This document shows positions 81-5,746 of a DNA stretch of 57,126 nucleotides, piece by piece (within the stretch, counting starts at the first letter, position 1; every line of letters starts with the position of its first letter). The stretch comes from an uncultured Oscillospiraceae bacterium. GTDB lineage: Bacteria; Bacillota; Clostridia; Oscillospirales; Oscillospiraceae. The position numbers and the translations under genes are program-made. Location: the NCBI GenBank assembly GCA_947624065.1, contig CANQIO010000007.1:1-57126 (forward strand), read 5' to 3'. Below the pieces are notes generated by a model that saw only the letters and a program-made list of their open reading frames with translations, ran no database searches and was not told the DNA's origin.

Positions 81-296
81 ATGAATGACGAGCTACAATC
101 AAAATGGGTACATTGCCCTATTTGCCACGGAAAGACAAGGATAAAAGTAAATCCAGATAGTGTTTTACTAAACTTTCCCCTCTTTTGTCCGAAATGCAAG
201 CAGGAACACAACGTCAGCATCATACAGATGAAGATGGTGATCAACGACGAGCCAGAAACACCACCTCGGCCACGTTTCCAGTACAAGCATCCCTAG
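81..296 (+). CDS. Cysteine-rich KTR domain protein (mobile-element accessory)
   Basis: A 71-residue protein of the Cys-rich KTR family. A CPIC pair is followed by the name-giving KTR, then NFPLFCPKCKQE, so two CxxC knuckles probably bind one zinc. The family is known as a passenger of conjugative elements, for example next to tetracycline-resistance genes in Tn916-like elements; its function is unknown. The ATG at 81 is chosen, with GGTG upstream; a TTG at 69 would add four residues. The gene is AT-richer than everything after position 1062, which suggests acquired DNA. No other element gene is inside the window. Confidence 0.8.
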   Translation: MNDELQSKWVHCPICHGKTRIKVNPDSVLLNFPLFCPKCKQEHNVSIIQMKMVINDEPETPPRPRFQYKHP

Positions 297-469
297 CAGA
301 AGCCGCCGTTGCTGTCAATGGTCAAGATGAACGGCTCCCTCAGCCGCCATTGACAGCAATGCCCGCTTCCGCTCTCCCTGTATGTAAGAGGGGCGACAGC
401 TATTTCCGCTGTCGCTCCTCTCATAATATCTGCTTCTTGTCTCACCCCGCCATAAAACCGAGGGCGGTG
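297..469. other. Gene-free stretch with two strong hairpins
   Basis: No convincing reading frame. It holds a perfect 13-bp inverted repeat (309-321 with 347-359) and a second hairpin (388-400 with 408-420, loop 401-407, one mismatch). The second could end transcription of the KTR gene, but its tail is only moderately T-rich. The tandem modules follow directly. Confidence 0.6.
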
Positions 470-885
470 TGTAATGGTTTAGACACTCTGGACCCCTTGC
501 GCCCCAAGGGATTCAGAACGGGAATTTGAGCAAAGCATGAAATCACCCGCTATCCTCCAAAAACCGGCTTCTATACCATTACATCAGGGGGCGATGTCCG
601 CATTTTAGCACTCTGGCCCCCTTCTGCCGCAAGAGGTTGAAACCGTTAAACTTAGGAGGGCAATGGTAGTATATGGCGACACCCGAAAACCGGGGTCTAT
701 ATGCGGACAAACTTAAAACTCTTTAAGCATTTGACTCTGCACACGGATCTTCGTGAAAACAAGGGTTCGATGTGACGCTTTTGGCCGGTCTGACCCCTTG
801 CGGCACAACGGGTTCAGGTCGTCAAAGTAAGGGGGTAATGATACTATACGGCACACCCCAAAAACCGGGGTCTATTGCGTCACAT
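470..885 (+). repeat. Three tandem 115-116 bp structured modules
   Basis: Modules A (470-584), B (595-709) and C (770-885) share interior sequence and length. Each is closed by a different perfect 9-bp inverted repeat: TGTAATGGT/ACCATTACA in A, TGTCCGCAT/ATGCGGACA in B, ATGTGACGC/GCGTCACAT in C. Inside are a CCCTTG-type hairpin near the 5' side and, in B and C, an ACCC(C)/(G)GGGT hairpin with an A-rich loop, followed by TCTAT. Different sequence with kept pairing at the closing stem is compensatory change, expected for a structured RNA or a folded single-strand DNA site. The plus strand is favoured only because its loops are A-rich. The family was not recognised. Confidence 0.7.
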
Positions 886-919
886 ACATCAAAGTTTTTA
901 AGCAATTCAAAACAGGCAA

Positions 920-1061
920 CGGATGGCGCATTTTAGCACCATCCGCTGTCTGCTCTGTCGATTCCAATTCCGTAAGACAGTTGCCAGATGTTCGTTTTTT
1001 CGGGGTCGTACTGTCTTACGAGCACCGGGCGTTCGCACCGCGCTTTTCTTATGTCCGGATA
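920..1061. other. Remnant fourth module and element/chromosome junction zone
   Basis: At 923-939 the start of module B recurs (GCAT then TTTAGCAC), but no matching 3' arm follows, so a fourth module is cut short or collapsed into a small hairpin (920-926 with 939-945). A perfect 11-bp inverted repeat (971-981 with 1010-1020, 28-bp spacer) lies just before the rny stop codon at 1062. GC content rises sharply there, so the element boundary is probably between about 945 and 1061. No recombinase gene is in the window to confirm an attachment site. Confidence 0.45.
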
Positions 1062-5516: not shown

Positions 5517-5556
5517 ACGGAAAACTCGGTATCAGCCCCGAAGGGCTCTCCATCGG

Positions 5557-5722
5557 CCATGACAGCGCTCCACAAATACTTGTGACAGTCCGGCGGATAT
5601 TCTCCGACGGCCCAGCGAGAGGGGATCAGACACTCCCCAAACGCTTCGGCGGCGTTCCCTTTCGCGACCGGCGGCTGTCTGGCCTTGCCGGGCGGTACTG
5701 ATGAAAACCGCGCCTCTGTTCA
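5557..5722 (-). ncRNA. Lysine riboswitch (L-box) aptamer
   Basis: Read on the minus strand, the leader carries the L-box conserved blocks in order: CAGAGGCGCGG, AGTACCG, AAAGGGAACGCCGCCGAAG, GCTGG, GGACTGTCACAAG and TGGAGCGCTGTC. Order and spacing match the five-helix lysine aptamer known from Bacillus lysC and lysine permease genes. A terminator follows at 5484-5516 and a consensus promoter precedes at 5747-5775. By family knowledge, lysine binding should cause premature termination and so turn off the importer. Confidence 0.92.
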
Positions 5723-5746
5723 GCGATTCATTTTTCAAGCGTGCTC

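Follow-up and report, generated by a model that had tools for sequence, protein, structure and literature searches.

A family of ~115-bp fold-back modules linked to Cys-rich VLP genes in mobile elements of Clostridia

The window, a 57,126-nt stretch of a contig from an uncultured Oscillospiraceae bacterium, contains an array of three modules on its plus strand. Module A (470-583) spans 114 nt and is closed by the perfect 9-bp arms TGTAATGGT (470-478) and ACCATTACA (575-583). Perfect 9-bp arms also close module B (595-709, span 115; TGTCCGCAT at 595-603 and ATGCGGACA at 701-709) and module C (770-885, span 116; ATGTGACGC at 770-778 and GCGTCACAT at 877-885). The spacing is uneven, with start-to-start distances of 125 for A-B and 175 for B-C, because B begins at 595 and C at 770. 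On the 5' side of the array are an open reading frame of the Cys_rich_KTR family (PF14205; 81-296, plus strand) and, 3' of this KTR gene, a long inverted repeat (295-373, plus strand) with 27-nt arms that are 85% complementary. An AT-rich palindromic tail of the CTTCAAANNTTTTTAAG type follows the last module (886-903, plus strand) and is kept within the genus, as read from alignments. The tail is followed by the hairpin CAGGCAACGGATGGCGC..GCACCATCCGCTGTCTG (913-952), which by eye is kept at the right ends of such elements, and by the inverted sequence CGTAAGACAGT..ACTGTCTTACG (971-1030), which forms the right end of the element and resembles the left end of its relatives, CATAAGACAGTAC. Homology to the relative G021 ends at ~1030. 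No gene lies directly 3' of the module copies in the window arrays.

The array holds three arm-pair centres with such spans. Dinucleotide shuffling of 470-886 (3000 shuffles) gave no centre 2989 times, one centre 11 times, and two or more never. This result bears out an initial annotation of the window, which had described three modules, each with its own perfect 9-bp inverted arms. The accompanying claim that the three lengths agree within one base (115-116) does not hold as stated, given measured spans of 114, 115 and 116. The interiors were said to be related, which is the case for B and C (71% identity over 80 nt in register), and A has the most diverged interior of the three. The GGGGT/ACCCC hairpin described as clear in B and C is only weakly kept in the genus, where 65.3% of its cells are paired compared to 85.1% for the arms. 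RNA folding of modules A-C on both strands gave z-scores between -3.06 and -0.31, which are not decisive.

The array sits at the right end of a mobile element, and the 913-952 hairpin and the inverted end lie beyond it. Five relatives were examined at length, and in each the same right end is joined, ~2 to 14 kb off, to a common left end with the matching inverted sequence. At its left end L035, the one relative with genes fully scanned, carries a large serine recombinase (Resolvase, Recombinase, Zn ribbon, DUF4368), and the cargo between the element ends varies among relatives. The matching ends and the recombinase confirm the suggestion that the array lies at the end of an acquired element. 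The window as a DNA query matched 17 of 99 genomes (own genome counted), all in its own genus, and model R1 matched 18 of 35 genus genomes, one of them weakly. Arrays in the genus usually comprise two or three units (B, C and often D) at ~176-bp intervals, modules B and C of the window being units 1 and 2. Unit D was not found in the window array; contig C74 of the same genome carries units C and D. The initial annotation had excluded plain duplication on the grounds that the arms would have been copied too. That exclusion fails: relatives carry B, C and often D as related units spaced ~176 bp apart, and the array is therefore compatible with duplication and later divergence of the arms in pairs. 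The element end in G021, otherwise 92% identical, lacks a 135-bp stretch (446-580) with which module A overlaps. Hybrid modules with 5' and 3' arms from different classes, and with pairing lost, occur in L033 (1507-1654) and L052 (1996-2143) and are consistent with recombination between array units.

Weak R1 matches in other genera of the family were read and aligned to give model R2. R2 matched 50 of 391 genomes and 35 of 223 genera in the class sample, and 56 of 300 genomes and 33 of 106 genera in the family sample (E up to 0.01 with shortened calibration; own genome counted in both samples). A homologue search of clostridial mobile elements had been proposed as a check, and with the covariance model it yielded this family. 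The motif had not been recognised by the initial annotation, and the Rfam searches it proposed left the modules without a family: nothing was found in the modules when the whole window was searched at the gathering score, and no family reached the gathering score in the modules of window 280-1050 and six distant loci searched at a lax E-value. The sole Rfam match at gathering score in the window is a lysine riboswitch (5555-5726, minus strand, 89.4 bits). The modules belong to a widespread fold-back family of bacterial mobile DNA that is missing from Rfam and was not found described, with no account of the motif in the literature searched. Among the individual loci, L064 (G338:C27, reverse complement 1-1200) has three modules ~415 bp apart with palindromic TTGGATTTTCCAA-type repeats in between, and L069/L124 (G204:C113) has, after ~590, a CRISPR-like repeat, CTCCCCTCGCGGGGAGCGTGGATTGAAAT, shortly 3' of the module.

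Two-sided changes were counted in 71 distinct aligned modules. They occur in 19 of 24 modelled pairs, with 226 such cells compared to 85 in shuffles and lower values in all slid controls, the alignment being one fitted to the model. Covariation was evaluated with our own script, not R-scape, against a tree-aware null in which Fitch substitutions were redistributed (20 replicates). Two arm pairs are significant on 71 modules and four on 155 modules (8-115, 9-114, 10-113 and 11-112; E = 0 in 20 null alignments). On 155 modules the test is likewise passed by six pairs that join these arm columns out of register, a reflection of arm classes. The arms covary, which agrees with the earlier view that differing arms with retained pairing represent covariation. 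None of the interior pairs passes the tree-aware test on 71 or 155 modules. The TGT/ACA arm ends and the inner UAG/CUA are mostly fixed across the class, and the module interior is partly conserved in sequence. Several other approaches to the fold were set aside. A naive column-pair scan of 39 modules was swamped by class structure, the interior RNA structure given by RNAalifold differs between classes A, B, C and D, and P2/P3 helices built into R2 gained no covariation support. Neighbouring modules have unlike arms in 17 close pairs, but we base no claim on this because these pairs lack independence and score 8 is reached by 19% of random cross pairs. Two wider-spaced G338 module pairs share their arms.

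The types of mismatch tolerated in the arms were used to compare DNA-level with RNA-level constraint. G.U favoring is expected under RNA selection and is not expected under DNA-level constraint or arm-to-arm conversion. The arm-helix finder takes the best ungapped helix and penalises all mismatches equally, and opposite-strand matches of the same modules were dropped (13 rows). The 90 distinct arm helices contain 999 Watson-Crick, 18 G.T, 16 A.C and 28 other cells. Counted in a fixed register, with 10 or more of 13 pairs Watson-Crick, the arms gave 38 G.T and 31 A.C, with the same outcome after removal of the 3-4 remaining opposite-strand rows. The control, tRNA acceptor and T stems from two Clostridia genomes in fixed register, had 26 G.U and 1 A.C in 58 distinct stems; the helix finder run on tRNA acceptor stems retained only 2 G.U and 0 A.C in 29. 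The arms differ from the tRNA stems (26:1) by Fisher's test with p = 1.3e-4 for the finder counts and p = 6.5e-5 for the fixed-register counts. The VLP-coupled subset of 28 distinct arm pairs has 15 G.T and 12 A.C. Wobble counts within P2/P4 came from a best-hairpin search, which biases them, and were not used. G.T and A.C are about equally frequent in the arms, unlike in tRNA stems, and the constraint on pairing therefore appears to act on DNA rather than RNA. Of the two natures first proposed for the modules, a structured RNA as such is not upheld, with interior pairs that fail and arms that show no clear G-U preference, and the same two observations favour the alternative, a folded single-strand DNA.

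The frame of a Cys-rich VLP gene (PF14194) ends in or at the 5' edge of the module in 21 of 55 loci and in 29 of 80 further loci (50 of 135, including several near-identical copies). The frame mostly stops on the UAG within the 5' arm, a triplet that many modules without a visible VLP have too (85 TAG in rows not marked VLP). VLP was found in 0 of 53 control RepA/DUF6017 loci without a found module. A search for PF14194 returned 28 genes in 15 of 196 genomes, and 21 of the 28 have an R2 match at or just 3' of the gene end (E up to 0.025; five are weak, E 0.001-0.025). The match in L312 is ~75 nt downstream of the VLP gene. Among the remaining PF14194 genes, L304 has visible arms with E of 0.13, L306 (own genome) carries a truncated stretch, both L308 and L315 are cut or broken, and L297, L298 and L302 have no module at the 3' end. 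The best 80 of 235 VLP-RepA-type loci in named genomes (some of the names being metagenome bins, possibly contamination) include 79 that match R2, and the 80th (L240) begins at a contig edge. These results identify a reciprocal link between module and VLP. A PDB profile search with VLP gave weak zinc-finger matches (best E 2.6e-4), and comparison of KTR with the VLP profile revealed no similarity (hhalign probability 0.91%).

Modules frequently lie before replication or establishment genes. Proteins encoded 3' of the module match RepA_N, Phage_rep_org_N, Mob_Pre, ArdcN, AAA_25, YodL and Sigma70_r2, and DUF6017-type proteins after the module match HTH_36. The L354 module adjoins an ArdcN gene, others precede RepA, Rep_org or Mob, and behind several solo copies there is no establishment gene. 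An ORF of at least 70 aa starts within 130 nt of only 97 of 183 aligned matches, and many such ORFs look spurious. VLP-module-RepA elements are found in L130, L149, L150 and L213-L292; in the C. jejuni plasmid pGMI16-002 the element is followed by a MobV relaxase and a serine recombinase. With a partly guessed query, RepA of 82-87% identity also turned up in contigs whose titles name many Clostridia, Streptococcus suis, Lapidilactobacillus and Dialister. None of 29 distant RepA loci carries a module. The transfer operon of the CD1115/Tn1549 type begins with DUF6017. Thirty DUF6017 loci were examined among the matches listed; a module is directly upstream in 5 (at least three arm classes), none is present in 24, and two copies are downstream in 1. 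By eye, a terminator-like hairpin with a T-run stands a short way ahead of the DUF6017 SD in many of the loci L153-L182, with or without a module. In 35 of 153 regions a terminator-like hairpin ends no more than 75 nt upstream of the module, compared to 12 and 15 at 400 and 700 nt further upstream, counts in which some loci are too short for the upstream controls and 3-4 opposite-strand matches are included.

The modules are best explained as copies of a ~115-bp site of clostridial conjugative, mobilizable and serine-recombinase elements, with a mechanism that we infer from their sequence and placement. Our tentative reading, held at a probability of about 0.4, is that the site is fold-back DNA linked to VLP, becomes active in the single-stranded element, and controls establishment genes in the manner of EGeRS1 or Frpo. 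The element would become single-stranded at conjugative entry or during rolling-circle replication, and each module would then close on its own arms into a hairpin. The hairpin would be recognised by the host or by VLP and would gate priming or expression of the gene behind the module. In the double-stranded state, the module may limit read-through. Where modules stand in tandem at an element end, as they do in the window, they would be additional copies of the site, and unlike arms would let each one close on itself. Such a site may serve as promoter, priming site or insulator. Observations that stand against this reading include two loci with modules in opposite orientation; the DUF6017 loci, only 5 of 30 of which have a module directly upstream; the window arrays and several solo copies, which lack an establishment gene to act on; the limited share of modules with an ORF starting nearby; the off-register pairs that pass the covariation test; and the lack of R2 homology with EGeRS1, whose authors reject a single-stranded DNA promoter in their system. 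The opposite-orientation pairs are ~370-390 bp apart (L136, 1133-1255 on the plus and 1501-1622 on the minus strand; L141, 1501-1622 on the plus and 1887-2008 on the minus strand), and the idea of a sense leader does not explain them. Least well explained are the window copies, which belong to an array at an element end. A bolder version, which we consider rather doubtful, would make VLP and module a two-part, sequence-flexible hairpin system of Bacillota mobile elements, defined by pairing and active only while single-stranded, through which VLP or a host polymerase would, once in the new host, initiate replication or switch on the expression of establishment genes.

A structured leader or intercistronic RNA is a possible but not a probable alternative. 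VLP, which is small, Cys-rich and zinc-ribbon-like, would bind the module in its own polycistronic mRNA and control rep/mob translation, and solo modules would be targets in trans. Ribosomal-protein leaders are a precedent for autoregulation of this type. The module does lie in sense orientation between the VLP and rep/mob genes, and in L129 and its relatives the repA ATG is ~9 nt past the 3' arm with no evident SD of its own and a strong SD-like GGAAAAGGAGGT before the module instead, a pattern that 78 of 80 loci fit. RNA folding of distant copies relative to shuffles gave z-scores of -5.4 to -8.1 in five of six; the sixth, L069, folds no better than shuffles (z = -0.67). An RNA leader also has to contend with arms that lack a clear G.U preference even when VLP-coupled, with the absence of interior covariation, and with terminator-like hairpins that directly precede some modules. 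Exchange of genes at the module, with VLP and module as a cassette carrying an attC-like 3' site, is unlikely. L320 has a near-identical module and a common upstream VLP with L296, L301, L388 and L399 and different downstream DNA, and therefore the module can mark a junction. Arms that vary yet pair, as in attC, and the hybrids that combine arms from two classes (L033, L052, L102, L103, L117 and L124) point in the same direction. However, the hybrids are explicable by ordinary homologous recombination, and the module is carried by VLP, not by every gene.

Arm identity could also arise from mutation, through template switching between the inverted arms, in which case concerted evolution would make the covariation neutral. 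The about equal tolerance of G.T and A.C and the existence of hybrids with unmatched arms agree with this explanation, which we nevertheless judge improbable given the mostly fixed arm ends and inner UAG/CUA, the partly conserved interior, and a module that stays behind VLP in all but one of the best VLP-RepA loci. A non-autonomous repeat of the MITE, ERIC or REPIN type, moving on its own and favouring sites behind terminators, is very unlikely. The modules are dispersed and multicopy, the module A region is absent from the 92% identical element end, and the Tn1549-type element of pMG2200 has an empty site between ATGCCC and AAAT at which L126 has a module. The flanks of similar modules argue otherwise. 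Module pairs at least 95% identical (67 tested, not independent of each other) share both flanks in 61 cases, only the upstream flank in 5, only the downstream flank in 1, and neither in 0; pairs 90-95% identical (48, likewise not independent) share both in 40, only the upstream flank in 6 and neither in 2. Near-identical modules share their flanks and therefore travel with larger elements and are not recently self-mobile. Neighbours in close arrays also have unlike arms, in contrast to the terminal repeats of one transposon family.

The module family links an orphan gene family, Cys-rich VLP, to a site in cis on elements that carry genes between Clostridia and also further afield; among these elements are IMEs, copies of which occur in a Streptococcus suis contig and on a Campylobacter plasmid. 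The timing of establishment genes after entry of Gram-positive elements is open for EGeRS1 in the available part of its description (PMC8708921), and a short site with a linked protein makes the question testable. The comparison of G.T with A.C is a cheap way of telling DNA-level from RNA-level covariation.

Known fold-back systems resemble the modules to different degrees. Integron attC sites have variable but complementary arms with R boxes (RYYYAAC..GTTRRRY). The modules have such arms and lie near the stop codon of the preceding gene; they differ in that R boxes were not seen at their arms by eye and that there is not one module per gene. ERIC, REPIN and MITE repeats are intergenic sequences of ~115-130 bp with inverted ends. 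The modules are alike in size, ends and placing, and differ in having not been recently self-mobile in the flank test, in their link to VLP genes and in arms that covary. The Frpo/ssi single-stranded DNA promoters of F and ColIb-P9, as the available part of PMC11541004 presents them, consist of DNA that folds back, lie upstream of early establishment genes and work on the strand that enters. They are the best-known counterpart of the modules, which have a similar fold-back character and placing. Frpo/ssi are best known from proteobacteria and have -35/-10 elements in the stem (PMC11541004), whereas -35/-10 consensus hexamers were not recognised by eye in the modules. In the available part of PMC8708921, EGeRS1 of pLS20 is repeated, inverted-repeat-rich DNA right upstream of the ribosome binding site of ardC and other establishment genes, where it blocks read-through and has no sigma-A promoter; its authors reject a single-stranded DNA promoter there, as the transferred strand is the non-template strand. 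EGeRS1 measures 400-600 bp compared to ~115 bp for the module, and that part of PMC8708921 does not mention the VLP association that the modules have. R2 run on pLS20 (1-50000 of 65774) gave a best match of 33 nt with E = 0.057, so EGeRS1 is not homologous by R2. Some modules, not all and not the window copies, lie directly upstream of establishment genes as EGeRS1 does. The likenesses given in the available part of PMC8708921, an inverted-repeat-rich site before establishment genes of Bacillota mobile elements, no ordinary promoter found and a mechanism still open, suggest EGeRS1 as the nearest published analogue seen and a close precedent in function.
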